Source: Symbiodinium sp. CCMP2592 (Eukaryota; Sar; Dinophyceae; Suessiales; Symbiodiniaceae). Taken from it: a stretch of DNA of 64,000 nt. Positions 6,591 through 52,679 of the stretch are shown here, piece after piece. The stretch's first letter is position 1. Every line of letters begins with the position of its first letter. The position numbers were made by a program, and so were the translations under genes. The notes beneath the pieces were generated by a model. It had not been told where the DNA came from and ran no database searches. It saw nothing but the letters and a program-made list of their open reading frames with translations. Location of the stretch: the NCBI GenBank assembly GCA_905221615.1, contig CAJNDT010005866.1:62001-126000 (forward strand), in the 5' to 3' direction.

Positions 6591-6594
6591 ATAC

Positions 6595-29939: not shown

Positions 29940-30478
29940 GTGGGCCGCGGTGGGTTGGATGGCTGGGCCGCAGCAAACTGGCTGGGCTCCCATTGGGCTC
30001 CCTTCATGTTTCCTTTCTAGGCTCCTGGGTTGGACGGGTGGGACGCGGCGAAGGACCTGGGCTCCCTTTCACTTCCCTTCATGTTTCCTTTCTGGGCTCC
30101 TGGGTTGGACAGGTGGGCTGCGGCAAAGGACCTGGCCATTTCACTTCCCTTCATGTTTCCTTTCTGGGCTCCTGGGTTGGACGGGTGGGACGCGGCGAAG
30201 GACCTGGGCTCCCCTTCACTTCCCTTCATGGGCACTTCCCCCTTTCTGGGCTCCTGGGTTGGACGGGTGGGACGCGGCAAAGGACCTGGGCTCCCCTTCA
30301 CTTCCCCCTTTCTGGGCTCCTGGGTTGGACGGGTGGGCCGCGGCGAAGGACCTGGGCTCCCCTTCATTTCCGTACATGTTTCCTTTCTGGGCTCCTGGGT
30401 TGGACAGGTGGGCTGCGGCAAAGGACCTGAGCTCCCGCTGGGTTCCCTTAATGTTTCCTTTCTGGGCGCCTGGTCTGC
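29940..30478. repeat. Tandem repeat of ~66-81 bp, six or more units
   Basis: GGCTCCTGGGTTGGAC recurs at about 30,018, 30,097, 30,167, 30,249, 30,316 and 30,390. Units end with AAGGACCTGGGCTCCC and often include TTCATGTTTCCTTTCT. Long frames run through on both strands (up to 353 codons) because of the repeat. Unit lengths vary and are not all multiples of three, so coding is unlikely. Confidence 0.85.
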
Positions 30479-30479
30479 C

Positions 30480-32200: not shown

Positions 32201-32263
32201 TATTTGGTCTTATTGTGTGAAGAGTACAGCGGGACATGGTAATACCGGTTTTGCCAGCGTTAT

Positions 32264-32710
32264 TTGGGGAACGAGATAGGGCCCGCAGTTAAAACGAGAC
32301 CGTTAAGAAAGTACATACCGTACATATTCATAGTTACTAAACGTTATCAATCATAATTATGTGCTTGCTTAAATGGGTACTTGTTAGTAGATATAACTGT
32401 GTGTGTGTAAATATGTATATATATATATACACATACAACTCTACATATTTGTCGTTCTTTATTCTATGTCTCTCTCTCTTTGTCTCTCTTTCTGTCCCTT
32501 TCCTTTTCTTCCTTCCTTTCCATACAGCAAGATGGCAGTCGTTTCCGAATGGCTAGAAGCGCAGGTGTGACATGGCCAATTTTCGGTTTCGAGTGTCGGA
32601 TCAGAACGAGATAGAGAACGAGATAGTTTACATTTGCCACTTTGGTCCCAGAAGGTCAGAACCCCTTCCTTGTGTAGAACAGTACTAGTACGACGACGAC
32701 GACGACGACG

Positions 32711-32747
<37 letters not shown>

Positions 32748-33128
32748 ACAGTACTACTTGTTCTGCTAGAACTACTAGTGCTACAAGTGCTGCTAGTATA
32801 AGTAGTACTTCTTGTACTAATCGTATTACTAGTAGTACTGGCACTCCTAGTATTCGTAGGATTGCTAGTATTACCCGTACTATTGCCACGGCCACTGCCA
32901 CGGTCGCCGCCCCTGCCGCTGCTCCTGCTCCTGCTCCTGCAATTGCTACTGCTACTGCTGCCGCTACTGCTGATGTTTGTGAAGCCGTTGCTCTTGTCAC
33001 TGCTGCTACAGCATTAAACCTTTATGGCATGCAGATGTGTGTAGCATGTGCTCGAACGAGATCCCCAAATATCTGACATTCATCTGGAATCCAGTCCTTC
33101 TTGGGGAACGAGATAAGGGCCCGCAGTA
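32264..33128. repeat. 810-bp segment between ~27-bp direct repeats
   Basis: TTGGGGAACGAGATAGGGCC at 32,264 recurs as TTGGGGAACGAGATAAGGGC at 33,101, both continuing to CCCGCAGT. The segment between interrupts the ~295-bp repeat family. AACGAGAT also occurs internally near 32,606, 32,618 and 33,055. Confidence 0.7.
32690..33008. repeat. ACG/ACT/GCT triplet tract
   Basis: Pure ACG, then ACT triplets grade into imperfect TACTAGTAC- and GCTACTGCT-type triplets for about 310 bp. The Ala/Val-rich minus-strand frame is an artefact of this. Confidence 0.9.
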
Positions 33129-33139
33129 AGGATACGCGT

Positions 33140-33640
33140 CCTTCAGCCGAAAACCAAATAAACTTCGTCGCTCATATAGCAACCTCTGTTGTGCTTCTTC
33201 CTCCAATGTCTACAGCGGAGGCAAGGAATCCTGTTTTGCAAAACGGTAATGTTATGAAAATTGAGGAGAAGTTGCGTTTTTTCTTTGTGCGGTTCCTGCG
33301 GCAACAAAATCTTGTGGACAATGCTCTTCGTTCGGTCAGCAGAGAAAACGTGAATGGTTCCGTGTTAAGAGAGCTTTTTGTTTGCTTTGTAAGCCGACAA
33401 ATCCTTCCTACCTTTCTTGCCAAACATGCACGGCAAAGTTCTCGTTTTCTTCCCGTCCGACAGCCAACCGAAGCGAACACCAAGCTCTTTTGCACTTCGT
33501 CCGCGAACGTTTGCAGCAGAGGCCAGGTATCCTGTTTTGCAAAGGCAACAATGTGGCAGTTGCGGGAGAAATGTGCATGTTTTCCGTGCATGGTGTTGCA
33601 GCAAGATCCTCTGAACGATGCTCCCTGGACCCTCCCAAAA
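33140..33640. repeat. ~295-bp tandem repeats, continued
   Basis: Two further diverged units, with TCTACAGCGGAGGC near 33,209 and TTTGCAGCAGAGGCC near 33,510, about 301 bp apart. Confidence 0.8.
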
Positions 33641-33813
33641 ACCTTCCCACATGCTTGAGTCCCACCACCCACTCTTCTTTCGCAGAAATATATCGCCCAA
33701 TGCCTAATTCTTCTTCGCAACATCTGCTGGCGAAGCCAGATTGGGATCCAACACATTCCAACTTGAACCGGTATGATTCGATGCATTCTGTTTGGGGTCT
33801 TCGCTGGTGTAAT

Positions 33814-36800: not shown

Positions 36801-37630
36801 CTGAGGAAACTACAATATCTTTAAAAGGGCAGCACGAATCAAAAATACAGGGCGCCGCGACCGTAAAACCACACAAGCAAGCGGAGCTCTTTTCTTTGTC
36901 GATAACTTGGAGGGGCCCGTCTGTCATTTTTGAGAGCTCTCTTCTGATCGGAAGCTCTCCTCCATGTTTTGAAGAGAAGGGGGGAGATGGTCAGGAGTTC
37001 TCGCCCCTGACTAAGAGAGAAAGGAGTCTTCTTGTCGACTGTCGACAGAGAGGTAAACACACCTCTCTTCTTTCTCGAGAAATTGGAGGAGCCTCTCTTC
37101 TGAGTTGTTGGGGTAGAAGACCTGTCAGGGGATCTCTTCCTCCATCAAAGGGTACAGGAGCAGCCCTCTTCTGTCTTGCGAAATTGGAGGGAGCTTTCTT
37201 CCTGTTTTGGACGATTAGGTAGACAACCCAATAACTTGGAAGTGCCGGTCTATCGCTCTCTTCTGCATCATTGGATTCAGCGGGCTTTTCTGTTTGGAAC
37301 GAGGAAGAGGAGATACTCAGGAGCTTTCTTAATTTCCCTTGCCAAGAGAGAAAGAACGCCTCTTCTGGCCGACTGAGGGTAGACGGAGGGCTCTTCTCTC
37401 TCGCGAAGTTGGAGGGGCTTGACTGCTATTTTGAAACAGGGCCCTCGTCTGTCTCACAAGGTTGGAGGAGTCCCACCCTCTCTTCTTGAACGTATAGGGT
37501 ATGCTTGCTTCCCTCTTTGGCAAGGCAATGGGGATAGTCAGGATCTCCTTCCCTTACCTAGAAAGAAGGAGGCCTCTGCTGATGGGTTAACGGAGCTCCC
37601 GTCTTGCTCGATAACTCATAGGGACCTGTC
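33814..37630. repeat. Higher-order satellite array, block 2
   Basis: Continues block 1 in phase. The anchor TGACTGCTATTTTGAAACAG recurs near 34,242, 35,849 and 37,417 (1,607 and 1,568 bp apart). The first unit is short by about 270-300 bp: after TTTTGAAGAGGAGGGG it jumps to a later subunit. The block ends exactly at GGGACCTGTC (37,621-37,630), where intact units continue TGTCTGTTTAT. That continuation resumes at 52,680. Confidence 0.9.
37621..37630. repeat. Target-site duplication, left copy
   Basis: GGGACCTGTC, repeated at 52,670-52,679. Uninterrupted satellite units (about 34,446 and 36,044) carry this 10-mer once. Confidence 0.85.
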
Positions 37631-37666
37631 GAGAGAGGGTCTTATGTCCGACAAGAAAAACACAAC
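37631..37666 (+). repeat. Left terminal inverted repeat
   Basis: Begins GAGAGAGGGTCTTATG and contains CCGACAAGAAAAACACAAC. Pairs with 52,634-52,669 at 26 of 36 positions. A further CCGACAAG follows at 37,672. Confidence 0.75.
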
Positions 37667-37759
37667 GACCGACAAGCAACGCGCGTGCCCCGACAGGCAA
37701 GTCTATGGCTCTGATGTGACATATCTCTTATATCCTACAATGTACACTCCACATATTTA

Positions 37760-37999
37760 TGTACCTAAACCTTAAACCTTAAACCTTACGTACCTAAACC
37801 TTAAACCTTACGTACCTTAACCCTAAACCTTACGTACCTTAACCCTACACCTTACGTACCTTAACCCTAAACCTTACGTACCTTAACCCTAAACCTTACG
37901 TACCTTAACCCTACACCTTACGTACCTTAACCCTAAACCTTACGTACCTTAACCCTAAACCTTACGTACCTTAACCCTACACCTTACGTACCTAAACCC
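37760..37999. repeat. 22-bp minisatellite with 66-bp higher order
   Basis: The unit is CGTACCTTAACCCTAAACCT plus TA. Two unit types differ at one base (CCCTAAACC versus CCCTACACC). After the first two units they follow the order A-A-C, A-A-C, giving a 66-bp super-unit. The unit contains one telomere heptamer. Confidence 0.9.
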
Positions 38000-38063
38000 T
38001 AAACTTTTTACAGTAAAAGCTTAGGTCTAGGTGGTGGAGCCATAAAGCCATGGCAGCCTGACA

Positions 38064-41000
38064 ATGTCCGATCGTTTGTCGGTCGGAGAGCAGCTGGCAG
38101 AGCTCAGCGCAGCTCTGGCTTGTTTGTGATTTGATCTGATCCGCTGTACTGTAACGGGGGGCTGGCGAGGCGGGTTTTTGACCAGCTCAGTTCAGGTTGC
38201 CCAGCTTCGAACGACGTTGGCTCAGCGAGACCTGGACGTCTCTGGCAACAAGGCATATCGTTTCTGTCGTTGTGCACACAAAACAGTTTGACAATCCTTG
38301 TTTTCTAAGCCGTCAGGCCACCTTGCTGCGGCGCCTTCGTGGTGCTGGGACAACGAAAGAGTTCACATGTTCGAAGTGTGCTCGTGTCGTGACCGAGTTG
38401 CCATGTGGAGACCGAAAGGAATGTCAAAGTTGCCGAGCTCTTGTGAAGCAGCTCTTGGCTCACGATGTAGCGGTCCAAGACTTGGGCCTTGATGCTGCCT
38501 TGTTGCGGAGTTTCTATGCGACAGTGGCAAATGCTCGCACTGCTTCGCCGATGCCGTGGAGCGATGTGCGAGAAATGCTATTGATGTCCTTGTCCTCACA
38601 CCACGAGCTGAGCCACAAGAAAGTTCGCTTCTGCAAGGAGCGGCCGCTCAAGTATTGGACTGACCGTGGATATGATGAGAATTATATCATGCAGCACTGC
38701 CCCGTCGTGGACGATCCGAAAATGGGACGGTTGTACCAGGGCGAGGTTCGCAGCGAAAGGGAGGTGAACCATCGAAAACTTTCCCTGAAGATTCTGTCTG
38801 AGTCTATCGAGAAGACCAAGAAGCGCAAGGAGCCGCTGTCTTTGCCCACGATTGGCAGGCTGTGCAGCTGCTTGTCTTGCTAGGAGCTCCAGAAAGCCAG
38901 CTCGAAAAGGGCGAAAAAACAGAAGGCAGCGCAGGCCGGAAAGTTCACCGTTTTTGTTATGACTTCGGTGTTTACCTGTAGTAGTGTTCCGTGTTGGTGT
39001 CTAAGCGTGACAATCTCTATGACTTCCGAAAATGAGTCGTAACGCGCGTTAGTTGCGGGAAGGCTCGCCCACCGTTTTTGTTATGACTTCGGTGTTTACC
39101 TGTAGTAGTGTTCCGTGTTGGTGTCTAAGCGTGACAATCTCTTGAGCAATCTTGCTCAGGGTCACGACGCTGTCGCTTCGCCATCAGACCTGGGCGATGT
39201 CGAGCAGCAGAAGGACCGTGTTGGTGTCTAAGCGTGACAATCTCTTGAGCAATCTTGCTCAGGGTCACGACGTTGTCGCTTCGGCATCAGACCTGGGCGA
39301 GCATCAGAAGGACCGTGTTGGTGTCTAAGCGTGACAATCTCTTGAGCAATCTTGCTCAGGGTCACGACGATGTCGCTTGGCCATCAGACCTGGGCGATGT
39401 CGAGCAGCAGAAGGAGCAGAAGGAGTTGCTGCTCGACATCTGTGCTGCCAAGCTCCTCTTCTTGTTTCATCCAAAAACTCGAGAACGTTTCGCGCGGCTT
39501 TCCCTATACTTCATGAACTGAAAGCAGACTAATGAGCTGCTCAGGTGCAAGTTGGTCTGTTTCGGGCACGAGAACGCGGGAGTGACATGTTACTTGCAGG
39601 CCAGATGCTGCGACTGGTATGCTTGCGTGTGAACACACAAGTTTTTTTTCTTGGCTTTCCATTTGGGCCAGGCTACCTTGACCATCCTGGCTATGCATGA
39701 GGTCTGCGAAAGCCTGCCCTTGCAGTAATTACAGATTCTAGCTTCGATTATTTATGAGGAGCTTCTTGGCAGTGATCCTCTCGACGAGACCTTGCACAAG
39801 GACTCTCTTAAGAGGCTGCTCTCGGGTTCTGTCATCCTCCAAGCAATTGTTGACCTGGTTCCAGGACATTTCCAATATCATTGAAGTATCTCGAACTCGA
39901 GTGGTGGACCGCCTTCGCATGGCTGCTTGGCCATCATGGTCTACCGGTTTTTCGCAAGCGACTCGTGACTTCGGTCCAGGTGCAGCTGGAGCAGTACTTG
40001 TCCAATTTTGATTTGGTCTCCCGCGGTGCGCAGGCCTCTCTGAGGGATGACGCGCAACACGAGAAGAAGACCTCATTTACATACCCTCAAACACTCATTC
40101 TATAGGTTTCGGGGAAGTCGGCTTTCAGACAAGGATTACGGCTTTAGGGGTTTTGGAGGGGTTCAGGGGTTTAGGGTTTTGCAACCTGTGGCAGGAGGAT
40201 GCTGTTCGAATATTCGAAGAGATTTTGCCAGTGTGCTTGGCCTGACTTTATTTTCCTGGCACATAAAAGAAAGCATGTCCTTCGCAAGTTCCACTTTTCG
40301 AGTGGAGCCTAAGTGAGGTGCGGTGGGCCTGAGCTGACTTTCAACATGGTGAGCTGCGCCAAAATCGAAGTGCTCAATGAGCTTGAGCTGGATGCACTGT
40401 GGCGGCTTTCAAGTTGGGGGTCGAGGCATGCTGGGGGTTAGGTGAAATGCACAGTATTCTTGTTGAGGAACTGCCGCCAAGCCCAGGACTCGCGAGTTTC
40501 GGACCCTCCTTCCGAGCCGCTACACATTCTCCGCGTCCCGCTTGCTTCGTGCTCATTTTCCATCGCTGACACTTCAACGCATGCCGAGCATGTTTTGCTT
40601 TTTGTTTGGGCCTCCTTGCAAGGCTCTTGCGGGCAATGCTTCTGAGGGCTGCAACCTGCAACTCCTGCTGGAAGCCGCAATATTTGCGGAGGCGCGTGCC
40701 TTTCCTGCTGTGTTTGTCTTGAGTCTTCAGTTCCTTGTTATGAGGTGGACAATTGCAAAGTGCACCTGACCAACGGGGATAGCGCGCGATTCACAGCCAC
40801 CAGAGCGCTCAAGCGTCGATGTGGCAAGCTCCCTGTTTGCGTCTGTATATAAGACCCTCTCCCTTGGCGCGCGTCCTGCATTGTCGCATCCAGGTTGGCC
40901 CCGCTTACGCTGCCTCTATGCTTGGAGCGATGGAGTGTGCCGGACATGTCTACAACTGGCAGCTGCAAGAACTCTGTCTCCATCACTGTTCCTTTCCAGG

Positions 41001-42350
41001 TTGGCGCCTTGGTGGTCCGGGTACCCGCCTAAACCTTAAAACCCCCACCCCCCCATTTGATTCATTCAATCCCTTCCCTGCCTAGGTGGGATGGGGAAAG
41101 GGAAGCTGAGGGAAGAGCTAGGGACAGGGGGCGGGGGACCTCACACCGCATTACATCCCCCACACCCCTTATAACCCTTACACCCCGTACACACTCCCTG
41201 CACCCTTACACCTCCTTACACCCACTTACACCCTCTACGCACCCTACACGCCTCACGCCCCCTTATACACACCCCTCACACACCCTATGGTACACCCCTT
41301 TCACGCCCTACACCCTAGACTCCTAGACCCTTTACACCCAACTATCATGCGCATTTTCTCTGAGGGATTGCAATTGCCTCTGCTACCTCCGGACCACTCA
41401 GACTTATGCCTTGAAGATGTGGAGCTCCTCGGCTTTCCTTTTCTCGACTATGCGAACATATAGACAGTCCTGCGCAGTCAACTTGCTAGCTGAGGTTATG
41501 GGAATACGATCTTCGCTCTTTCATTGTGCACGAGGTGCGACCAACGTTTTGTGCAGACACTTCGCCGTTCTCATGCTGATGTGTTTTAAACACAAGGCCA
41601 TATACACCCCCAAATAACCCCTGAGGTCCCTCACACGGGTCCCTCCTTTAGTCCCTGGAGTGTTGCGAGGGCACGCTGGATGGGGGGCATTTTATTGCCT
41701 GCTACAAAGCCGACACATGGTACATGGTCGATAACAATCGACGCACAGGCTCCTTGGCCGCAAATGATCCTAAGCATTACACGTGTCAAACATATTCCCA
41801 GCGCCGCTACTTCCTCTGCCTGCTTCAGCTCTCACCAACGAGAAGGCCATCAGCCTGGCCAGTGTTGCATATCTGCTTCTCGGCAGTCGAAAGCCCGCGT
41901 TACACATGTGCTTTGTTTTTTCATGTTTGCCCGGCGCGCAGAGGCTCGTGTATGAATTGAAAAAATATCTGGGAATGACCCGTGGCGAGCCCCTCTGTCC
42001 GCCAGCAGGCCACCAGCAGTCCATTTAAGCAGCCATGCTGGCCTTTTGGATTTTCTGTTTCAGGATCTTCTGCAGACCGCCTTCCGCCTACCTTTGCTCC
42101 TTGGCCGTGTGGTTCCTTTCCAGCATATTTGCGAATGTGTCCTTCTCAAGGACTACGCCAATGTGTCTGGCGAAGGGTTGAGCTTCGAAAAAGTTCAGGA
42201 GGCCATGGCCCCACGCAGCAGATGTAGCTGCCCAAAGACTTCTGTAAATATCTGGCAGGTCCAGCGATTTGTGCGTCACCTCCGTGCCGGGCCGCGCATC
42301 GAATTGGACGGTGGGGAGGTCGGAACCCTGAACCGTCCGGGGTGTGAGGG
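38064..42350 (+). CDS. Multi-exon SAP-domain gene of unknown function (partial model)
   Basis: The best-supported exons are 38,064-38,111 (possible start, MSDRLSVGEQLAELSA), 38,196-38,252 (VAQLRTTLAQRDLDVSGNK), 38,317-38,829 and 38,884-38,943. The second exon joined to ATLLRRLRGAG makes a SAP domain, a short helix-helix DNA-binding fold. A Cys cluster follows (CSKC, then CGDRKECQSC: spacing C-x2-C-x8-C-x5-C-x2-C), possibly zinc-binding. Exon 4 is Lys-rich (ASSKRAKKQKAA), like a nuclear signal. The first intron would be GC-AG, the second is GC-AG (38,253-38,316) and the third GA-AG (38,830-38,883). Downstream exon-like pieces follow AG acceptors at 39,545, 39,672, 39,735, 41,479, 41,831, 41,941 and 42,064. 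One junction near 39,880 needs a frame change, so either an intron was missed or the gene is damaged. Exact 3' end not determined. It is cargo of the 15-kb element. Confidence 0.5.
38253..38316 (+). other. GC-AG intron inside the SAP domain
   Basis: 64 bp, starting GCATATCG and ending CCGTCAG before GCC. Its removal joins VSGNK to ATLLRRLRG in frame and restores the SAP consensus. The paralogous intron at 43,602-43,650 sits at the same codon. Confidence 0.7.
38830..38883 (+). other. GA-AG intron
   Basis: 54 bp from GAGCCGCT to TTGCTAG. It contains the stop that would otherwise end the frame. Removal fuses KKTKKRK to ELQKASSKRAKK in frame, a continuous basic region. GA donors are rare outside dinoflagellates. 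Confidence 0.55.
38945..39480 (+). repeat. Tandemly duplicated exon/intron segment
   Basis: GTGTTGGTGTCTAAGCGTGA recurs at about 38,986, 39,116, 39,218 and 39,315. The full unit encodes VLVSKRDNLLSNLAQGHD and continues SDLGDVEQQK. The upstream part (CACCGTTTTTGTTATGACTT) is also duplicated (38,947 and 39,070). Units are about 97-130 bp and mostly not multiples of three, so probably one copy, the last (to about 39,480), is used as exon. Confidence 0.75.
41130..41335. repeat. C-rich degenerate CCCTTACAC repeat
   Basis: CACCCTTACAC- and CCCTACACG-like words recur at about 10-14-bp intervals, probably within an intron of the SAP gene. Confidence 0.6.
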
Positions 42351-42375
42351 GTGTAATGGGTCTAGGGAGTGTATT

Positions 42376-42682
42376 ACACACAATACAAAACAATAAATGT
42401 CGCTCCAGATCTGTCTACCACACTACAAGCATGGACTGGGACTCGCCTTCTCTCTATCGCTCTCTCTCACATTTTTTTCGCGTCCGTAATTAATGGAATT
42501 GCGCGCGCGAAAACTTGGTCGAACCAAGCCAGGAACCGAGCCACCCCCCCACTCCACCCTAACCCATTTTTTTCGCGTCCGAAATTATTGGAATTGCGCG
42601 CGCGAAAACGGGCCACCCTTCCCCCTCCCCCTCTCCCCTCCTAGGGGGGAAGTTTTGATTAAACACACAATACAAAACAAAC
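42376..42682. repeat. Paired direct repeats with CGCG-rich arms
   Basis: ACACACAATACAAAACAA occurs at about 42,376 and 42,664. Between them a second direct repeat, TTTTTTTCGCGTCCG followed by GGAATTGCGCGCGCGAAAAC, occurs at about 42,472-42,513 and 42,568-42,609. Each copy has TTTTCGCG and CGCGAAAA arms that can pair. Confidence 0.7.
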
Positions 42683-42773
42683 ACACACGCACACACACAT
42701 ACACACCCAAAGCAAGCGTAGTTTAAAACTATCCTCTGGAAGCTCAGAGCAAGCAGTTGAGAGCCTCTAAAAG

Positions 42774-43300
42774 CCGCGCACCCTCCGCGCACCCTCCGCG
42801 CACCCTCCGCGCACCCTCCGCGCACCCTCCGCGCACCCTCCGCGCACCCTCCGCGCACCCTCCGCGCACCCTCCGCGCACCCTCCGCGCACCCTCCGCGC
42901 ACCCTCCGCGCACCCTCGCGCACCCTCCGCGCACCCTCCCGCGGACCTCCGCGGACCCTCCGCGCACCCTCGCGCACCCTCCGCGCACCCCCCGCGCACC
43001 CCCCCGCAGCACCCTCGCACCCTCCGCGCACCCTCCGCACACCCCGCCCACCCCCCGCGCACCCTCCACGCACCCTCCGCGCACCCTCCGCACACACCCC
43101 CCCGAGCACTCTCCAGCACACCCCCCGCGCACCCCCCGCGTACCCCCGCACACCCTCCGCGCACCCTCCGCACACACCCCGCGCACCCCCCGCGCACCCA
43201 AACTGTCTGCGCACCCTCCGCGCATCCCCCGCACACCCTCCGCCGCGCACCCTCCGCGCACCCTCCGCGCACTCTCCGCACACCCCCCGCGCACAGTGCG
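42774..43300. repeat. 11-bp GC-rich minisatellite CCCTCCGCGCA
   Basis: About 45 units: perfect for the first ~12, then increasingly varied (CCCCCCGCGCA, CCCTCCGCACA). The long frames on both strands (up to 310 codons, Arg/Gly/Cys- or Pro-rich) exist only because the unit has no stop. Confidence 0.95.
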
Positions 43301-43355
43301 CGCACCCTGCCTCGACTGTCAGCCATGCACTTCACTTGTCTGTCTGCTTCGCCAG

Positions 43356-43800
43356 GCTGCCATCCCGAGCAAGTCCCAGTCTTCCGGACGGCAGAAGCAA
43401 GGCGACGACTCCGGCGAGGTGCCTGGCCTCGCATCTCTCCTTGCACTTGCCATGTCTGCCTGCTTGTGCAGGTTGGCCTGGACCAGCTCAAGGACAGCCT
43501 CCACTTTCACTGGCCCTCATTTGTACGTGTTGTCGGTCTCACAGGTAGCGCAGCTCAAGGACATGCTTCGGAACCTGAAGCTGCCAGTCAGCGGAACGAA
43601 GGCCTCTCAGCCAACTCCATGATGCCGCCTGTCCTTCTCCGACTGGGCAGGCTGAACTCGTAGCTCGTCTCCGCGACTCTGGCCAACAGCAGGCTAAGTC
43701 CATTCTCTGCCATGCTTCTTTAAGCTTCCGCGGCCCGCTTCTCTGTCAGGTTCCTTCAACAAAGCGGCCGAAGCACAAGACGATGGTGTCCTTCTTAGGG
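43356..43800 (+). CDS. SAP-domain gene fragment (partial)
   Basis: Exon 43,356-43,418 (AAIPSKSQSSGRQKQGDDSG plus E) ends at a GT donor, and that intron ends at 43,471. Exon 43,545-43,601 encodes VAQLKDMLRNLKLPVSGTK. A 49-bp GC-AG intron (43,602-43,650) follows, then AELVARLRDSGQQQA. Joined, these give a textbook SAP domain (LKDML-x3-KLPVSGTKAELVARL). The 57-nt exon and intron position equal those of the gene at 38,196, so the two share an ancestor. VPSTKRPKHKTMVSF may follow after another acceptor at 43,753. No further exons are seen before telomere-like filler, so it is probably truncated. Confidence 0.6.
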
Positions 43801-44139
43801 GACGATGGGGCTTCGACTTTGGAGTATAGGGCACACAGGAGAGGCTTTACTATCCACCCAACGCCCTAAACCCGGAACCCCGCGGTGAGGCTCCACCTGG
43901 CGGGCCGAGGAATGATCCAGGCTGCGCGCCTCCTAGTTTAAGTCTACGATGTAAGGCTCAGCGTGGCCATATAGGGAACCCACGCCAGCACGAGTTGAAG
44001 CGGTGCTCGCGTCACCCTAAACCTTGAAGCAAAACCCCCTGAAAACCCGAAGCTGTCCGGAAGGCTTCTCTGGAGGGGAGGTGTTTGAGTCCGGCGACGA
44101 GATGCCCCTGGCCGAAAGCCTGGGAGGCGGAGGGCCTAG

Positions 44140-44590
44140 GGCTTTGGGCTTTGGGGTGTAGGTTTTTGGGTCTAGGGTTTCGGGCTTTTAGGGTTCGTAG
44201 GGGTTTAGGGGTTTGGGGTTTGGGGGTTGAGAAGGTTGAGGGCTTGGGGCTGAGGGTTTGGGGTTTAGGGCTCCAGGCTCGCTGTTTGGGGTTTGGTTGG
44301 GGTTTGTTTAGGGTTTGTTTCGGGTTTGTAAGTGATAGTGAATGGCTAGCCGTAGTCAGAAGAATATCAATGTCAATGAGGACCAAAAAAACAATCAGAG
44401 ACACAGGCCCTTGACCAAAACCCTAAACCCTCAATCCTCAACTCAAAGCCGTAAACCGAAACCCTACTAAACCCCAAGACACTAAATCCTAAACCCTAAA
44501 CACTGAGCCTGCATCCTAAACCCTACTGGTAGTCCTAAAACCGACATCCTAAACCGTAAACCCCCGAACGACCCCAAACCCTAAAGCGCA
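44140..44590. repeat. Opposed telomere-like blocks
   Basis: TTTAGGG-derived, G-rich units at about 44,140-44,335 are followed by CCCTAAA-derived units at about 44,410-44,590, a loose inverted arrangement. Confidence 0.75.
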
Positions 44591-45069
44591 AGGCCCCGAG
44601 GACGACCATGGCAATGATCACAGGCTCGACTGCTTCGGTTTCCGATCTTCCGCGCGTCCGGTTCAGAGTTTAGGGTTTTGGATTTGGGATTTAGGGCTTC
44701 GGGTGTGAGAAGTCCATGTAGTAGGCAGTATTCGGGAGACCCCCAGAGCACCCTTCGAAACCCCACCTGTTTTGGGTTTCTTAAACGGCACCTTACGGGA
44801 GGGTCTATCTCCCCAAAATCCGACCATGCTTCAGGAGTTTGCAGTGGCATTTCTGGGTTTAGGGCTTTTCTGGTTTCCGGGCTTGTGCTCTAGGGGTTTA
44901 GAGTTTCAGATATGATTTGGCTTTCCTAGAAAACCTTGGGGTTGGGGTTGAGCAGCGTCTCCTTCGTCGTCTGCAGCTTTCAAGTACTCAAGTCATCAGA
45001 GTCCTTTAGAGCGCCCCCTATTCGTTCTGACTCGTAGCACACATCAAACGCGGGCTTCGTCGTCTTGCA

Positions 45070-45215
45070 GACCAAAGCAACGGCAACAAATCGTCGTCGT
45101 CCTCGTCGTCGTCCTCGTCGTCGTAGGCGTCGTCGGCCTTTGTCCTTGTCGTAGTCGCAGTCTTAGTCCTCTTCGATTTAGTCGCAGGCGCAGTCGTAGT
45201 CGTCGTAGTAGTGGT
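45070..45215. repeat. TCG/TCC triplet tract
   Basis: TCGTCG triplets with TCC and TAG variants. The Thr-rich minus-strand frame is a by-product. Confidence 0.85.
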
Positions 45216-45719
45216 GTGGGTAGTCGGTGAAAGCCGAAGTAGAAGGAACAGAACCACTGGTAGAAGGAGTCTATACGGAGTAGCAGCACCACGTCAGAGG
45301 CAGGACGGACAGACGTAGTGACCTTCGCAGCTCCGGAAGGATATGGGCAGCTCTCTGAATTAGGATCTTTTCTTCGGTAACCAAATAGTACGGTACTCTC
45401 CTAAACCGGACCCTAGATGCAACCCGCATTAGGGGAAGGGCCCAGCTGTTTGTGGAGGAAGCGGACGGTGGCTACGTCCGAAGCAAACCGGCGAAATCCA
45501 GAGGCGCTCTGCTTCCTGAGACAGGGGCCTGAATCGCTCTGCACCAACACTACTTTGGGTCAGCTCAAGTTAAACATGCATGTGGCCGACGCTTATTATG
45601 AGGTTCTCCCTCCTGACACCAGAGTGACAAGAGTCTGACGATGTTATGAGTTATGGAGGTATGTGATTAGTGTTTGTTGGGTTCATTGATATGTGTACTT
45701 AGTAAGCATCACTGGGCCG

Positions 45720-46469
45720 ATGCCTCGCCGGAAGCTCGTCTATACCGACCATGGGCCTCGTGTTGGCTATGGCACAAATGTTTTGCCAAAGCCTAAGCGT
45801 CCTGGGATTCCCTTGCCTATTGGTATCCTTCTGAGGGCTGCCGCCAGACTTTACGCAAAGGAACAGGAGTGGCTCGTGGCCGACTTCCGCACGCCGCGGA
45901 AGGTGGACATCGATGTTTGGGAGACAGTTGCAAGCTGCAGAAAGTGCGAAGACTGCGGGACGTGCTACCGTTTCACTGGCGGTTGGATAGAAGATGGCGC
46001 AGTGTTTTCATTGCAAGCTGCCACCTCCGGTGATTGCGACGGTTCCACACCCAGGCGCCGCAAAGCCCGCGGACAGCGGCAGGGTTGCCAACCGACTGCT
46101 GAGCAACGGGAGAAGATCTACCGCATTTGCGACAAATTGGCGGAGAACAACTTGAAGATCACGCCGTCTGCAGTGGCTGTGCGCATGGGCCAGGACAGAG
46201 TGTCGGGTCGCGCTTTGCGCGGACTCTTGAAGCATCGCAAGCGAACGTTGGGAGCAGCTACCGAGCGTTTTCTGAACTCTTCAGAAGGTTTCCCAGAGTA
46301 TGCGATGACGCGCTCAACCGATGATGAGAGCTCCAGCTTGAAGATCCTCAGCTACGTTTCTACTCGCGCTTCCTTTATGTGGATCAGTGTCGTTCCGGTT
46401 TTCCTCGCTGCGCTGACGGCGCTGCATGCAGCGTATCCTATCGAGCACATGCTGCTTGCTTGGTTTTAA
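45720..46469 (+). CDS. Mutator-like transposase, N-terminal part
   Basis: 249 codons from ATG at 45,720, with the frame open from 45,693. Residues ~75-105 hold CRKCEDCGTCYRF, then GGW and a later Cys, resembling the Cys-rich DNA-binding modules at the start of Mutator-like (FLYWCH/WRKY-GCM1-type) transposases. A basic stretch (RRRKARGQRQG) and a helical segment beginning TAEQREKIYRICDKLAENN and including GRALRGLLKHRKR follow. This matches the region that precedes the catalytic core in protist MULEs. It lies 5' of the core ORF on the same strand with a ~340-bp AT-rich gap. The last ~50 residues look non-homologous, so the true exon may end earlier. Confidence 0.55.
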   Translation: MPRRKLVYTDHGPRVGYGTNVLPKPKRPGIPLPIGILLRAAARLYAKEQEWLVADFRTPRKVDIDVWETVASCRKCEDCGTCYRFTGGWIEDGAVFSLQAATSGDCDGSTPRRRKARGQRQGCQPTAEQREKIYRICDKLAENNLKITPSAVAVRMGQDRVSGRALRGLLKHRKRTLGAATERFLNSSEGFPEYAMTRSTDDESSSLKILSYVSTRASFMWISVVPVFLAALTALHAAYPIEHMLLAWF

Positions 46470-46806
46470 GAACCCATTACAATAAATATATAAAACACAA
46501 CAAATATACAGAGCCCGCCCCAAAAACTACTTTACTAAATGTGTCGCCCGCTTCGCCCAGGGTCGACAAATAAAGACAAATAAAAACAACTAAAGACAAA
46601 ATAAAACAAATAAAGCTAAAGCTTGCCAGATACTAGCATAAATAAGGTTTTGGGCCTTTTACATATAAGCCTTGTTGATCTAAACCCCGTGGTTCTGACT
46701 CCCCGCAAACGGTTAAGGACTTAAACCCTTAACCCTGAACCCAAAAGGTCCCTCTGCGCTGACTTTACGCATCAGCTCTGCCACATGGGGTTCAAGTACG
46801 GCCTGA
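46470..46806. other. AT-rich gap between the transposase ORFs
   Basis: Contains repeated AAATAAAGACAAATAAA-like words (about 46,566-46,620) and a CCCTTAACCCTGAACCC run near 46,725. It interrupts the transposase where the first catalytic Asp would be expected. It is either an intron or an insertion that replaced that segment. A possible acceptor, ATATACAG, lies at 46,818-46,825. Confidence 0.5.
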
Positions 46807-48357
46807 TCTGCGTGGCAATATACAGGAGCCATTTCGGAGGGATTGTATTTTTCTTTTCGAGACATGGGTTCCACTGAAATGAATGTACCCGACCGAACCA
46901 GGAAACTTGGCACTGAACAGCGCTGGCGAAGAACGGGGTGGCCTGTGGGCGTGATCTGCAGTCCGTCAGAACGAACAGAACACTACAAGGCGACGTTTGA
47001 CATCTTGAAAGCTGAGCTCCAGAGTCGACGCCTCCCGATGCCGAAGCAATTACACGTGGATTGGTTCGGTCACGGCGACGGCTCACTTGACACAGCGTGG
47101 GCCGAAGCTACCGATGGGCACGGCAAGACCGTGCATGGCGTGGAGCATATGATCCGCGCTGTGGAAAGAAACCAGAGGCGGGGTACAGCGCGGGCAACAG
47201 CGGCGGCGGAAGCCCACCGCCGCCCGGAGCGCGAGGACGTTGCGCACGCCAAAGCTGCACCGCGGCGTGGGCGTCGCGCGCGTGCTAAGGCCCCGTCACG
47301 ACCCAGGCAGCTTCGGGTTCGTCCTCCGCCACACTTGAAAAACCGCGATATCTGGTACATCATCACGTTGATTCGTTCGACGATGTTCTCGCCGACTTCG
47401 TTGTTGTTCCATGTCGCTTGGGAGACGGTTCGAAAACGCTTCATTCACGTTTACGGCGAGAAGGAATGGTGCGATTACTTTTTTGCAGAATATATGGCCA
47501 AGAACCGGGACGACCGCTGGACCTCGTCATGGTGGGCCGGGCTGTATTCTACTACTTTGCGAGGTCTCCCGCCATCCCAACAAACCTCAGAAGAGCTCAA
47601 TACAAAGCTGAAACGAGACTTTGAATCTCTTCCCAAGAGCACACACACCGAGGTGTGTGACAGCCTGGCTCGGATTTTGACAACTTGGGCCTCCCCGCTC
47701 TTGCCCGGTGAAGAATTCCACGACGAGCCAGCGTACTCCCTGATGGCGCCAAACCCGAACTTAAGTACGACTGGGCCGAAGTCCCCGGACGGCTGGATGG
47801 TGGAAAACCAATCTGTGCTGCTGTACCGGCCTGGGAACATAAGGTGCCCAAGCCCAACAATACCGCTCCTGCTTAAATACATGCGCAAGCCCAATTCGCC
47901 CTTTTTTTATCATGAACAACGAGATGAGCGAAGGTGGGTGGTCATGGCTGTCTCCAGACCGAAACACCTCAGTGCAGATTTCGGACGACAGTTCTTGAAA
48001 TTCATGCGGGAAAGCCGCGAGGAGCACTTGGTCCAGCTGCTGCTGCAAGAGCAGGTCCTGATGCCGGAGCCTGCCCATGCCGAGGCGCCGCACTCCTTCA
48101 AGTTGATGAAGTTCAACGAGCTCTTCTTGGATCACTGCGTCTGCATTTTGCAGCCTGGTTCCGACACTTCCGTGTGCACTTGCTGGTCTTTCGCTTGGCA
48201 AGGCCACTGCAGCCACAGCTACGCTTGCAATGAATATTACGAGCTGAAGAAGTATACCCGGACAGACTTGCCAAATGCAGCGCAAGCCTTGGCCGAAGCA
48301 GAGCCTGAACACGACGTCCCTCCGAGACAGCCAAAGCGTAGAAGAAGCTCTGGCTGA
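46807..48357 (+). CDS. Mutator-like transposase, core and SWIM domain
   Basis: Open from 46,807, with first ATG at 46,864 (497 codons). Near the N-terminus, GWPVGVICSPSERTEHYKAT matches the MULE stretch after the first acidic residue, and QLHVDWFGHG may cover a following Asp. The region SWWAGL...GLPPSQQTSEELN resembles the conserved WW-G...P-S-Q-x-S-E-x-L block of the MULE core. CTCWSFAWQGHCSH (CxCx8CxH, nt 48,175-48,216) is a SWIM zinc finger, typical of the C-terminus of these enzymes. The protein ends basic (PKRRRSSG). An Arg/Ala-rich insert sits between the acidic region and the conserved block. It would cut and join DNA at the terminal inverted repeats. It may be inactive, since the first catalytic region is not seen. 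Confidence 0.7.
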   Translation, partial: SAWQYTGAISEGLYFSFRDMGSTEMNVPDRTRKLGTEQRWRRTGWPVGVICSPSERTEHYKATFDILKAELQSRRLPMPKQLHVDWFGHGDGSLDTAWAEATDGHGKTVHGVEHMIRAVERNQRRGTARATAAAEAHRRPEREDVAHAKAAPRRGRRARAKAPSRPRQLRVRPPPHLKNRDIWYIITLIRSTMFSPTSLLFHVAWETVRKRFIHVYGEKEWCDYFFAEYMAKNRDDRWTSSWWAGLYSTTLRGLPPSQQTSEELNTKLKRDFESLPKSTHTEVCDSLARILTTWASPLLPGEEFHDEPAYSLMAPNPNLSTTGPKSPDGWMVENQSVLLYRPGNIRCPSPTIPLLLKYMRKPNSPFFYHEQRDERRWVVMAVSRPKHLSADFGRQFLKFMRESREEHLVQLLLQEQVLMPEPAHAEAPHSFKLMKFNELFLDHCVCILQPGSDTSVCTCWSFAWQGHCSHSYACNEYYELKKYTRTDLPNAAQALAEAEPEHDVPPRQPKRRRSSG

Positions 48358-49200
48358 AGTCTCTGTTTCAAAGCCTGTCTTCAGAATAATGACGCATACC
48401 TCCTGGCATCCGCCCTAGGAGATGGAATGCCGGCTGTGCCTTCCGTGGTTGGCTGGGGCTGACCATTGATGTTTTCCTCTCACACACCCCGGCTTTCTTG
48501 ATCGAGCAAGCCAAGCAGGTGGTTTCTGTGTTATACTACTTAAGGCCTAGAGGAAGATGCCCAATTCCTGAACACTAAATGTCTAGGTCCCTAGGTGTGG
48601 ATGTCACTCAAACTTGGCTTGCCATTCAGAGACGCTGCACATGGAGGGCTCCTGCTCCGCAAAGAGACACATGCCTACCTTACGCATCAACCCTGGTCCG
48701 GACTTTGGGAGCGGGGTTTCCCAATGTGCCAAATTTCACGACTTACATGAGCAGTTGGCTTGAAAAGAGCACCAGTAGTAGCAATAGAGCCCAGCAAAGC
48801 AGGGGTTCATGGCCAGCGTCTATTGGCTTTCGCCTCCTTGGGCCAACGACCATGTTTAAGGCAGTTTGCAAGTCCTCTTCTTAACCCGGCTGCTAAAGTC
48901 AGAGTTGTAACTGCTTCAATTTCCAAACGGAACCCTCAACCCTACAAGCCAGGCCCCGCGAGAGAAGGCAGCGCTTGAGTAAGCTTTGCCCCCAAACCCG
49001 GCTGCCCTTGATTTGCCAGGCCTCTGGTGTTCACGGTGCCAAGCGCAAGCAGGCGGGCAACGGTGGGGAGCCGGACTGGGCGAAATACAGAGGCTAGAGT
49101 GCGTGGCCGATCGTAGACGCTTAGCACTTAATCGTCCTGAAAACCTATCTGTAAACCAATTCTTCCTGAACCTTAAACCCATGCACTGTATTCTGTACCC
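48358..49200. other. Unassigned DNA downstream of the transposase
   Basis: A 101-codon frame (48,579-48,884) has no recognisable domain. Nothing else is supported. Confidence 0.3.
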
Positions 49201-49204
49201 TCCT

Positions 49205-49595
49205 AAGGTAGGGTTTAGGGTTTAAGGTATAAGCCCTTTATGACCCCTAGTACCCTTCCTGGAAAACCCAAAACCCTATTCTGACGTTGCCTTTTGACCC
49301 ACACGGCTCTTCCTATCGCTTAGATGATGAAGTCCCAAGCTCTGTCTCTCTCTGGCTTATAAAAAACGACAAGGATTTCAAGCCCTATGAACCTTGAAGT
49401 CTCAGCCCGTATAAGAACCCCGGAACTGACCAGGTGGATTCGGTGGCGACCCCTGCCGAGGGGGAGGACGCCAAGGAGTCCTGTGCCGGCTTAGGGTTCA
49501 GGGTTTGGGGGTTTAGCGTTTAGGGGTTTGGTGTTCAGGGTCTGGGGGTTTGGTGTTTATTTTAGGGGTTTAGGGTGTTAAAGTCATAAAGATTG
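49205..49595 (+). repeat. Telomere-like filler around a duplicated exon-like segment
   Basis: TTTAGGG-derived runs at 49,205-49,230 and 49,488-49,590 flank the first copy of a segment described at 49,282. Confidence 0.7.
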
Positions 49596-50165
49596 CGATG
49601 TTCGAGCTTTCTGAACCCTTTCTGCGATAGCTGCAAGTCCTGACTTAAACCCAATCGCCTGAGCTTCAAGCCCTAAATCCAAGCTTGGATAGTGGAGATC
49701 TTGTAGAGCAGAAAAATGTGGGGACCGAAATACTTATATACCAATGTGTTTTTTGGGTATCCTTATTTTGATTATAGTACATTATCACCCCAAAGCTCTG
49801 TCTTAAATATTTTGGCCGTTTTCTAACTCTTGCAATGCTGATACTTACCTCTTTTGCAACCCTACTGCCGGCTGTTGAAAGCAGGCGCCTCCGGAGAAGA
49901 TCGATTTGGAAACCACATCGGTTGAGAGTGCAGAGGCAGGGCCTGTCTGTCTGTCAGCAGCCGTCAGAGCGACGTTGCCTTTTGACCTTCACGGCTCTTC
50001 CTATCGTTTAGATGACGAAGTCCCAAGCTCTGTCTCTCTCTGGCTTATAAACAAAGTTCCGGTGCGACAAAGATTTCAAGCCCTATGAACCTTGAAGTAC
50101 TGACCAGGTGGATTCGGTGGCGACCCCTGCCGAGGAGGGAGCCAAGGAGTCCTGCGCCGGCTTAG
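49282..50165 (+). pseudogene. Duplicated exon-like segment, two copies
   Basis: GACGTTGCCTTTTGACC starts copies at 49,282 and 49,970. The copies run in parallel for about 200 bp, through AAGTCCCAAGCTCTGTCTCT and ACTGACCAGGTGGATTCGGT to CCGGCTTAGGG. Both encode TLPFD-HGSSYRLDDEVPSS followed by VSLWLI, with silent or conservative differences (GAT/GAC, CGC/CGT). This suggests past coding constraint. After LWLI the copies differ by indels and end in stops. Copy 2 has additional open frame upstream (VESAEAGPVCLSAAVRA). It looks like a captured host exon duplicated inside the element. Confidence 0.5.
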
Positions 50166-50310
50166 GGTCTGGGGGTTTAGGGTTCAGGGTTTGGGGGTTT
50201 AGCGTTTAGTGGTTTGGTGTTCAGGGTCTGGGGGTTTGTTGTTTAATTTAGGGTTTTAGGATTCAGGGTTTACGGGTTTAGCGTTTAGGGCTTCGGGTTT
50301 ATAGTGCTTT
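50165..50310 (+). repeat. Telomere-like filler
   Basis: Degenerate GGGTTTA/GGGGTTTAG units directly after the second exon-like copy, parallel to those at 49,488-49,590. Confidence 0.75.
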
Positions 50311-50489
50311 AGAGGTTGAGCGGAAGCCAGCACGCGGCAGGATTCGCAGAAGGCTGAGAACATAGCTTCGCCCGGACAGGACGCGCCAGAGGCGAAGCGG
50401 GTTCAGGGTCGGGGTTTGGGGTTTACACGGGGTTTTACACGAGGATCAAAGTGGTTTGCAGGTCTTCCTTATGGCGTAAGAAGGATTCC

Positions 50490-50720
50490 AAACTACAGTA
50501 GCACAGTAGTTGTATAGTGCAGTAGTACAGTAGTATTACAAGTAGTAGCGCAGCAGTAGTACAGTAGGTAGCACAGTAGTACAATAGTAGTACGGTAGGA
50601 CGAGTAGCAGCACAGTAGTCTAGAGCCGTGCAGCAGGGTTTGGGTGGCTGACTCTTTCACCATGACCCGAGCCCACTCATCAGAAAAGTCGGTATATTGC
50701 AGTAGGTATACTACAATATA
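50490..50720. repeat. CAGTAG/TACAGTAG tract
   Basis: Degenerate AGTAGTACAGTAG-type repeats with one ~60-bp unique-looking interruption. Similar in style to the TATAG/TACAG tracts elsewhere. Confidence 0.75.
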
Positions 50721-51095
50721 CCGCAAGATCCTAGATTCTGCATGAAGGCAACTGCAGTAGAATCTCATGTCTAGAGGCAGAGCATCGGAAAGGCTCGCGG
50801 GAGGCTTCTGCAACCGGAGGCATCACGAAACATGCTATCCGAAGCTTCAAAGCCGGACCCCGGGGGTTTGGGATCTATAAGAGTTCTTTTAAAGGGATCT
50901 ATAATGGTTCCTCTAAAGGAGTCTCCCGGTAATCACCTAGAAGCAAAAAACGGTAGTATGTATACAAATGGACCACACCGTCCCTCAACCCTAATTCCAA
51001 AACCCGAAACCCTAAAACCTTAAACCCAAGACCCTAAACCCCTCAACCCGTAGCACCCTGCAGCCGTCCAAACAATAGTAGACTCTGCAAGACCA

Positions 51096-51196
51096 TACTT
51101 GGAGGTTCATGGGACTTAGCTACTAGGTTATAAAGAAGGTAACCATACTTAAGGTACTTATAGCCTTACTTACCAAGTCCCATAAACCTCTAAGTA
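51096..51196. mobile_element. TA-bounded MITE-like palindrome, copy 2
   Basis: TACTTGGAGGTTCATGGGAC at the left and GTCCCATAAACCTCTAAGTA at the right. Shorter interior than copies 1 and 3. Nested inside the 15-kb element. Confidence 0.75.
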
Positions 51197-51307
51197 TAGA
51201 CCCCTTAAAGGAACCCTAAAAGAATATACTCTAAACTATAGCAGGATTACTATTGTGATTCAAGGACTATTCCTTATTCAAGGGATCTTGGAGTTGTTGA
51301 GACAACC

Positions 51308-51415
51308 CAGAGACTCCAGTATCCCTAAATTGAGGAATATACCTTAATTTATAATAGGATCCCTAATATGATTTAAGATAAATTTCTTAATTAAGGTATA
51401 TTGGAGTCTCTGGGA
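51308..51415. mobile_element. Palindromic MITE-like element, CAGAGACTCC ends
   Basis: CCCAGAGACTCCAGTATCCC at the left pairs with GGTATATTGGAGTCTCTGGG at the right. Relative of 5,345-5,537, without the internal triplication. The CAGAG start resembles hAT termini, but no clear 8-bp duplication is seen here. Confidence 0.65.
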
Positions 51416-51524
51416 AGTCCCTACATCGGCCCCATGCCCGAGACCCTAAGCCCTGAACCCTTTCAGGTGGAATCGAAAACAGGTGCCTCAAGAAGAGCCC
51501 GAGCCCTGAAAGCTAAAAGCCTTG

Positions 51525-51615
51525 TGCTCTAACCCTCTAAACCTCAAAACCCCTTACCCCTAAACCCCGAAACCCTCCCAAACCCTAAACCTTAAACCCG
51601 AAACCCCAAAACCTA
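51525..51615 (-). repeat. Telomere-like filler
   Basis: CCCTAAACC/CCCGAAACC degenerate units. A similar short block lies at 51,005-51,055. Confidence 0.75.
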
Positions 51616-51891
51616 CCAACTACAGGGGCCGAAAAAATTACCAATACTATCTGGGTGGTTCCCTATTACAGTTATCGCATAATGGGCCCCCCAAACCCTA
51701 TTCTAACTTTTTTAAGGCCCGTATATAAGACCCCCTCCAGCCACAAGAATGTGCCGCATTAATGTAGAACGTAGAACCAACCCTACACGCAAGGCGAAGG
51801 CGATCTTGGGGCCCTGGCGCTTCAATGATCATGTGGGTCAGGCACGGGTTTCATTCGGCCTACCCCTAAGAACCATGACAAGGTAACTTGC

Positions 51892-52275
51892 ATGGAACTG
51901 ATACTTCCGGACTCGGCAGTTCGGGCCAAAGTGGGCATTCCCCTATTCGATCATGCGAACACAAATAGCAGAAGCAAAGTCATCCGAAGCGAAAGCATGT
52001 GCGATCATGAAAAGCTTCATGAGTGCTTTAGTGAAAATGTCACTCGCAGCAGCCTCTGCAAAGTCCGGCCAGAAAGAGTGAGCGCAAGGCATATATGTGG
52101 GTATTTGTGCACACACAACCGGCACAGGCTCGACAGAAGCATGGCCGCCGAGCGTGATGATGCGGATCTGTGCGGCGAGCACGGTGGTTTGGGCGTTATC
52201 TCTCTGATTGGCACTGCCTGCCAATCCCGTAGGCTCCCTGCATACAGGACTTTTACCATGCACACTGGCCGCTAG
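51892..52275 (+). CDS. Uncertain ORF near the right end of the 15-kb element
   Basis: 127 codons from GTG/TTG-type or 126 from ATG (MELILPDSAVRAKVGIPLFD at the N-terminus). No recognisable domain, signal peptide or membrane segment. Overlapping frames of similar length exist on the minus strand (51,943-52,263), so coding is not established. Listed because it lies in otherwise non-repetitive DNA just inside the element's right end. Confidence 0.2.
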   Translation: MELILPDSAVRAKVGIPLFDHANTNSRSKVIRSESMCDHEKLHECFSENVTRSSLCKVRPERVSARHICGYLCTHNRHRLDRSMAAERDDADLCGEHGGLGVISLIGTACQSRRLPAYRTFTMHTGR

Positions 52276-52494
52276 GTCGATTTTACAACTGCAACCTGCT
52301 TTCGGGGGCAGTTGGAGCCACAGGGATTGGGCTTGCTATATAAGCCTCTGCCGATGTCGGGGCGACCGCGTGCTTAATGGGATTCCGTTGCGCAAGCACC
52401 GGCAGCAGAATCAGAAAAAACGGTGTGCTCTCTGGTTGCTTGCTGACGAGTTCTTGGAAGGACCTTGCTTCAGGGCTTCGGGTGGCTTGCTTTC

Positions 52495-52669
52495 GTGTCC
52501 GGCGTTCTGTTTTGGCCTTTCTTGTCAGGCGTTGTGTTCGGCCTTTCTTGGCAGGCGTTGTTTGGCCTTTCTTGTCAGGCGTTGTTTTTGGCTTTTCTTG
52601 TCGGGGTTGGGTTGTTTGGTTGTCGGGAACACTGTTTTGTTGTTCTTGTCGGGGTTTAAGCCCCCTGTC
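52495..52669. repeat. Right subterminal repeats and terminal inverted repeat
   Basis: GGCCTTTCTTGTCAGGCGTT recurs with variants at about 52,515, 52,540 and 52,565. TCTTGTCGGG then recurs at about 52,597 and 52,643. The final 36 bp (52,634-52,669) form the right terminal inverted repeat. The reverse complements (CCGACAAGAAAAG, CCTGACAAGAAAGG) match the left end words at 37,646 and 37,672. Confidence 0.8.
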
Positions 52670-52679
52670 GGGACCTGTC
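52670..52679. repeat. Target-site duplication, right copy
   Basis: GGGACCTGTC, identical to 37,621-37,630. The satellite resumes here with TGTCTGTTTATGGACATGG. Confidence 0.85.

Follow-up and report, generated by a model that had tools for sequence, protein, structure and literature searches.

The window studied here is a 64,000-nucleotide stretch of DNA from Symbiodinium sp. CCMP2592 and corresponds to bases 62001-126000 of contig C5004. It contains a complete Mutator-like element (MULE), which lies in one copy of a dispersed repeat and is flanked by an exact target-site duplication (TSD). The element carries its own predicted transposase gene and two further genes, a zinc-ribbon gene and a SAP-domain gene. 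Genome searches covered 1,098,105,373 bases in 5383 contigs (the 1.1-Gb assembly). The peridinin-chlorophyll protein family PF02429, which is not known outside dinoflagellates, has 143 matches in this assembly and none in 14 control genomes, which identifies the host as a dinoflagellate. The borders of the element and its transposase gene are as follows:

37631-52669, + strand: complete Mutator-like element, 15,039 bp, delimited by terminal bases shared with 12 other loci, an exact TSD and paralogous empty sites
37621-37630, no strand: left TSD copy, GGGACCTGTC, 10 bp
52670-52679, no strand: right TSD copy, GGGACCTGTC, 10 bp, exact
37631-37666, + strand: left terminal inverted repeat, 26 of 36 positions matching the right end
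52634-52669, - strand: right terminal inverted repeat, terminal 40 bp identical in 9 of 11 loci compared
37649-37659, + strand: subterminal word CGACAAGAAAA, 18 bases inside the left end, a probable transposase contact
52593-52603, - strand: opposed subterminal word CGACAAGAAAA
45720-46450, + strand: predicted transposase exon 1, with an N-terminal Cys-rich stretch at 45936; compared with open reading frame 1 (ORF1) of a sister family
46748-46825, + strand: predicted transposase exon 2, with the first catalytic Asp at 46761 (ADFTH; VTSDFTF in the sister family)
46902-48357, + strand: predicted transposase exon 3, with Asp 47059, His 47146, Glu 47590 and the SWIM motif at 48175-48216

The target word GGGACCTGTC occurs six times in the window, once in each of four intact repeat units (at 27657, 29216, 34445 and 36043) and at the two flanks of the element. 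The repeat unit of ~1.6 kb is found on both sides of the element in exact phase. The left block follows the unit up to base 37630 and the right block picks up at 52670, with 97.9% identity to 34445-35245 over 801 columns. An earlier sequence-only reading of this DNA had reported the exact 10-bp duplication, the single target word per intact unit and the perfect phase across the gap, and all of these are confirmed. The same reading described the surrounding array as a satellite, which has to be revised. The block recurs with fixed ends on other contigs, so the array forms the inner, tandem part of a dispersed repeat and a free-standing satellite is ruled out. The block is composed of a 196-bp start, about four units and a closing piece of ~797 bp (unit positions 1-837). 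When one unit was searched against the genome (524 candidates, best 27 scored), at least 320 matches were obtained, and the dispersed-block units are 84-99% identical. The block in the window spans 27461-53466, and similar blocks are found on C1013, C4668, C171, C2990, C5140, C2535, C5158, C2090 and C935.

Among the matches listed, the closing piece is present on ten contigs, the window included. On the nine others, which are the contigs just named, it abuts the preceding unit with 0 bases between. In the window a distance of 15,049 bases separates them, equal to the element plus one 10-bp copy. The flanking blocks, which the sequence-only reading supposed to have been adjacent before the insertion, are therefore adjacent to the base in nine other copies of the repeat. 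These copies are paralogous empty sites by match coordinates, not by the sequence of those loci. A second insertion of 3916 bp (window 29897-33812) is present in the same repeat copy as the element. Here the unit breaks off and restarts without a shift in position, and no more than 1-2 bp are repeated. This insertion contains 75-bp and 297-bp tandem repeats and has no clear end repeats by eye.

The termini of the element are imperfect inverted repeats. The 26 matching positions among the first 36 bases at both ends were already counted in the sequence-only reading; of 200,000 pairs of 36-mers drawn at random from the window, 10 reach this number. The opposed subterminal words described there are also present, with CGACAAGAAAA at 37649 and its reverse complement at 52593, one occurrence each in the window. 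The same ends recur elsewhere in the genome, where 12 other loci have one or both of them when the left-end and right-end searches are combined. All 11 matches of the right-end query and all seven of a 115-base left-end query begin at base 1, the window included in each case. A longer left-end query of 270 bases gave 73 matches (125 candidates, best 40 scored). Six loci, the window among them, match it from base 1, and the remaining matches are confined to telomere-like repeats further in. The two exceptions to the identity of the terminal 40 bp at the right end are C857, an element of 51 bp with little beyond both tips, and the divergent C60. The right-end identity among the remaining copies would be a suggestive sign of autonomous activity.

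Both ends are present at seven loci, with the following lengths and target-site duplications:

window: 15,039 bp, GGGACCTGTC
C1713: 6000 bp
C102: 4213 bp, GTAGGTATAT
C5351: 3716 bp, ATCAGCAGTA
C1079: 1333 bp, CTTCTAGGAT
C331: 804 bp, GGTTTTAGGC
C857: 51 bp, GCAGAAAATG

The duplications at six of the seven (all except C1713) are exact, 10 bp long and all different, so that copies with the same ends and different flanks, as proposed for a check in the sequence-only reading, do exist. The borders, the duplications and the family membership are direct observations, and because smaller relatives with the same ends are found elsewhere in the genome, the borders and the mode of insertion are well supported. 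No transposase was seen in these smaller copies. At C857 (L062 1480-1530), ~21 bp of the left tip and ~30 bp of the right tip stand inside perfect 10-bp duplications. This remnant fits excision with poor repair, and the element may have been excised and then poorly repaired; alternatively, it may have been inserted already that short. C868 (L013) has two left ends in direct orientation ~110 bp apart, and its right end was not found within the 8.4 kb read. C1602, C550, C3968 and C60 were covered for ~1.6-1.7 kb inward, and C2946 by its end match alone. Behind the left end, C1713, C331, C102 and C5351 (L009, L010, L011 and L012) have a ~270-bp repeat unlike the telomere-like repeat of the window, which is tandem in three copies and a single unit in C331. 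In addition, C102 and C1713 have a 1630-bp piece in common with 99.5% identity.

Joining the three exons of the transposase gene via GC-AG and GA-AG introns gives a reading of 754 amino acids (aa) with no stop, and the transposase is probably intact. The introns, and hence the joined coding frame, are predicted, with splice junctions picked by comparison with paralogues that read through that stretch. Since the sister frame holds VTSDFTFRLAIMGYSYGVLC unbroken, the first Asp of the window protein is placed in the short exon 46748-46825. Introns with GC or GA donors amount to 25-74% in three of seven genome columns given in PMC7789003 and to 0.02-2.95% in the other four. The SWIM-ending transposase proposed from the sequence alone is also seen here. 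The ORF 46807-48357 contains a CxCx8CxH ending at 48175-48216, recognized by eye, on which Pfam SWIM is silent. A genome search with this frame gave 45 matches (75 candidates, all scored). At high identity the frame stands alone in the genome; the next full-length matches are 35% identical, and a 47-residue piece on C435 is 64% identical.

Of the 29 other loci fetched, 11 were aligned with the window (12 rows), and residues were counted by eye where covered. The second Asp is conserved in 8/8, the His in 7/8 (Arg in L022), the Glu in PPSQQxxE in 8/8 and the SWIM Cys/His residues in 5/5. At the C/D position of (C/D)xxH the window has Gly, and the paralogues L023 and L024 have Asp. Paralogue L029 matches PF10551 MULE with E 7e-4 over positions 28-99 of 99, no better in its spliced reading, and L023 does so with E 0.13. 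The remaining paralogue frames scanned with Pfam gave no transposase match. A PDB profile search with alignment A1 returned four chains, none significant: integrase (E 0.046 and 0.091), Mutator family transposase (E 0.38) and aldolase (E 0.8).

MULE transposases have the motif order Asp, Asp, (C/D)xxH, Glu. Terminal inverted repeats of MULEs are often long and sometimes short or absent, and a SWIM or zinc finger is common, not universal. In the window element, the exact 10-bp duplication (six of seven two-ended loci) falls within the MULE range of 8-11 bp, inverted repeats are present with 26 of 36 positions, the catalytic residues listed above are in the DDE order when read by eye, and the SWIM-type CxCx8CxH ending is seen by eye. 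Neither the window protein nor L029 matches PF10551 above the cut-off; this cut-off belongs to the tool and does not define a MULE biologically. The assignment as Mutator-like, also made in the sequence-only reading, is supported by the duplication length, the DDE/SWIM layout and the weak Pfam MULE match in a paralogue. The transposase would accordingly be a divergent Mutator-like DDE/SWIM protein, and this reading is supported. The standard Pfam MULE and SWIM profiles overlook transposases of this lineage. The window element is a large variant of the known Mutator superfamily, and its family is firm.

A sister family of 12.3 kb is present in the same genome. Six loci encode its 35% identical transposase with equal scores (C389, C1335, C1802, C2613, C4579 and C5087). 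The fetched sister DNA is 99.4-99.9% identical to L015, and the main blocks of the copies are 99.2-99.7% identical to one another. Elements could be delimited in three of four fetched loci, with 12,267 bp on C1802, 12,340 bp on C2613 and 12,283 bp on C4579; on C389 the match ends at an N stretch. With these three elements large transposase-bearing relatives are found again. Like the window element, the sister family has a CG(A/C)C-type word at a distance of 18 bases from each end and a target duplication, exact in one of the three delimited copies (9 bp, TGGCTGCAG, on C4579). An exact duplication was not found on C2613, and repeated bases on C1802 are accounted for by a neighbouring left end alone. 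On C1802 (L046+L047, position 18380), the right end of the first element is followed after five bases by this second sister left end (39 bp, 97%), in head-to-tail arrangement. The sister family differs from the window element in its end sequences, its extra frames and its several nearly identical copies. Because the copies are nearly identical, the sister family looks recently active.

Two of its extra frames were seen in L051. The frame at 5719-6909 (C4579) encodes 397 aa and has weak Pfam similarity to HMG-box PF00505 (E 0.035) and histone-fold PF00125 (E 0.0044), both below the cut-offs. In the PDB it gave HMG and histone H3-like chains with E 0.07-0.77, with unrelated chains equal in score. 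It is possibly a transposon-borne chromatin protein. Pfam is silent on the frame at 3103-3570, which contains DGLCGWHS, a motif that we take to resemble OTU-type cysteine proteases.

The further genes and internal repeats of the window element are as follows:

38308-38859, + strand: main exon of the zinc-ribbon gene, 184 aa, in the stop-to-stop frame 38182-38883
38884-38945, + strand: probable 3' exon of the zinc-ribbon gene behind a putative GC-AG intron, by-eye comparison with P0001 and C5181
43472-43692, + strand: SAP-domain gene, with an exon from 43472, exon 43545-43601, intron 43602-43650 and an exon from 43651
37769-38004, + strand: 22-bp telomere-like tandem repeat behind the left end
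39113-39415, + strand: 103-bp tandem repeat, 3 copies
42774-43308, + strand: array of the 11-bp CCGCGCACCCT
51295-51425, no strand: nested palindromic repeat with 64-nt arms, with relatives at window 5347-5543 and in the C1713 flank
52490-52613, + strand: 26-bp tandem repeat with subterminal CTTGTC words

The zinc-ribbon gene was named from CxxC pairs seen by eye, and its frame has no Pfam match. A large protein database contains one relative, P0001, with 67% identity over 77% of the frame. The genome search gave two matches of 28 candidates, the window and C5181. The C5181 copy has 97% protein identity and contains a 9-base insertion and a stop. Its coding part is ~98% identical to that of the window, and the 15 differences at 678 sites (7 synonymous and 8 non-synonymous) are too few to judge selection; the repeats before the gene are 82% identical. 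In the 1630-bp piece of the C102 element lies a distant zinc-ribbon relative with 29% identity over 87 aa (E 2e-4 pairwise), which scores 16.1 bits in phmmer, whereas the highest of 500 shuffles reached 8.4. It was absent from the matches of the genome search made with the window protein. Because this piece, common to C102 and C1713, holds such a relative in C102, a zinc-ribbon-type gene may have belonged to the family for a long time.

The SAP-domain gene noticed in the sequence-only reading is found inside the element. Its bare, unspliced frame 43500-43619 matches PF02037 with E 2.3e-5 (24.3 bits versus a cut-off of 23.9, profile positions 7-26 of 37), and the longer frame 42771-43619 does so with E 6e-4, below the cut-off. 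When exons are joined, among others across the GC-AG intron of 49 bases, the match improves to E 7e-12 and extends over positions 2-34. SAP-region DNA has two genome matches, the window and the C1713 element (window 43305-43496, 192 bp, 95%), and in C1713 the similarity breaks off inside the gene. Since the SAP DNA matched these two only, the gene was probably present in the common ancestor of the window and C1713 copies, and it appears to be resident in the family. The sequence-only reading had spoken of one element with cargo. The single insertion of 15,039 bp stands, and the term cargo fits less well, with a SAP gene that looks resident and a zinc-ribbon gene that is also found once without the left end. 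The SAP gene, and less surely the zinc-ribbon gene, would probably be resident accessory genes of the element. An internal duplication of ~300 bp is seen at 49283-49574 and 49971-50260. Rfam and tRNA scans of the window found nothing, and Pfam found nothing relevant on six bare frames of the element.

Taken together, the locus is very probably a single 15,039-bp MULE that inserted into one copy of the dispersed repeat with duplication of 10 bp of target and has its own, probably intact, transposase. The most likely binding sites of the transposase are the CGACAAG words close to either end; the enzyme would excise the element and insert it at a target site cleaved with a stagger of 10 bp. The same enzyme probably also mobilises the smaller copies with the same ends. 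The products of the SAP gene and, less surely, of the zinc-ribbon gene would probably bind to DNA or chromatin while the element transposes or afterwards and could thus be transposition helpers. The binding words, the cut-and-paste mode, the activity and the role of the accessory genes are what we infer from the sequence.

Several observations weigh against this interpretation. C1713 has both ends and no 8-11 bp duplication, just AGTACT (6 bp) repeated. No second full-length transposase copy was found in the genome search, and the 15-kb size rests on a single copy for this reason. The window transposase has no Pfam transposase, MULE or SWIM match, and the PF10551 score of L029 is 20.4 bits, below the Pfam cut-off of 27.6. 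In the large protein database, nothing passed E 0.001 or E 1 with the transposase (best 7992 and 7993 candidates scored, respectively). The intron positions are not forced: intron 1 allows 10 in-frame junction pairs and intron 2 allows 24, the chosen ones included; 8 of the 24 have G after AG. Some paralogues have stops, and L043, which was left out of the alignment, reads GHCAPL with the last SWIM His missing. Finally, C5181 shares element positions ~127 to 1315 without the left end, which also fits capture from the host.

Such a capture, in the manner of Pack-MULEs, would mean that a smaller Mutator element acquired host zinc-ribbon and SAP genes by chance and that they have no role in transposition. 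The higher identity of the C5181 copy in the coding part than in the preceding repeats agrees with this, as do the 67% identical protein in another data set and the different extra frames of the sister family. However, SAP-region DNA is without a match outside the family, and the distant relative in the piece common to C102 and C1713 suggests that a zinc-ribbon-type gene may be old. We consider the capture a serious possibility that falls somewhat short of probable. The size of 15 kb could also have arisen in a smaller MULE by later nested insertions and repeat expansion, for which the nested palindrome, the ~300-bp internal duplication and the long simple arrays could be cited. This is rather unlikely, because the outer ends, the duplication and the empty sites indicate one insertion event at these borders, and the sister family, with its nearly identical copies, is itself 12.3 kb long, so that large size is not peculiar to the window copy.

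The class of the element is open to far less doubt. Other DDE superfamilies with 8-10 bp duplications (hAT, P, Merlin) could come into question for a protein without a Pfam transposase match, and Merlin-related proteins have been reported from Symbiodinium (PMC8101967). The SWIM ending and the Asp-Asp-His-Glu order are nevertheless those of MULEs, PF10551 MULE is the sole transposase family matched by paralogues (L029 and L023), and duplications measure 10 bp at six of the seven loci and 9 bp at one sister element, which makes another superfamily very improbable. A chance joining of two repeat blocks around unrelated DNA, or a misassembly, might be suspected with a single assembly as the basis. 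The exact phase, the exact 10-bp repeat, the same termini elsewhere and the nine paralogous empty sites by coordinates leave it practically no probability, and it is ruled out by the exact recurrence of the ends at other loci.

The insertion of one large transposase-bearing MULE, which we prefer, can be compared with known systems. Mutator-like elements make 8-11 bp duplications and can contain extra frames, according to the MULE survey PMC6446971. The window element shares with the MuDR/MULE superfamily of that survey the 8-11 bp TSD, the DDE transposase, the SWIM motif of many groups and the extra genes of some. It differs in its 15-kb length, its short imperfect end repeat of ~36 bp and a transposase too divergent for Pfam MULE and SWIM. 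Pack-MULEs likewise have Mutator-type ends around genes other than a transposase, and their derivatives are moved in trans, as may also be the case here. In Pack-MULEs the transposase is supplied in trans (PMC6431247), whereas in the window element the gene is aboard; the Pack-MULEs of Jiang et al. 2004 are at most 7 kb long, as given in the same source. A Pack-MULE without transposase is ruled out by the 754-aa reading. Full-length arthropod MULEs also contain a transposase and are defined by end repeats and duplications, in a size range of 1.4-10.0 kb (PMC13359780) versus 15 kb here.

Merlin elements and related proteins have been described from Symbiodinium (PMC8101967), and PMC9087856 treats DNA transposons in Symbiodinium in general, with the word mutator in a reference only in its available text. 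In the main text of the MULE survey (PMC6446971), alveolat-, dinoflagell- and Symbiodinium are each absent. Among the open-licence papers listed, none describes a dinoflagellate MULE in its title or abstract.

We tentatively suggest that dinoflagellates may harbour a lineage of autonomous 12-15 kb MULEs, in which DNA- or chromatin-binding helpers of their own (SAP, zinc-ribbon and, in the sister family, the weak HMG-box/histone-fold-like frame) would be working parts of transposition in an unusual chromatin; for now this is a conceivable idea and hardly a likely one. The element itself offers base-exact borders, an apparently intact transposase, derivatives with the same ends from 15 kb down to 51 bp and nine empty sites. 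With it, the activity of dinoflagellate DNA transposons, the upper size of such elements and a contribution of the extra genes to mobility all become directly testable.

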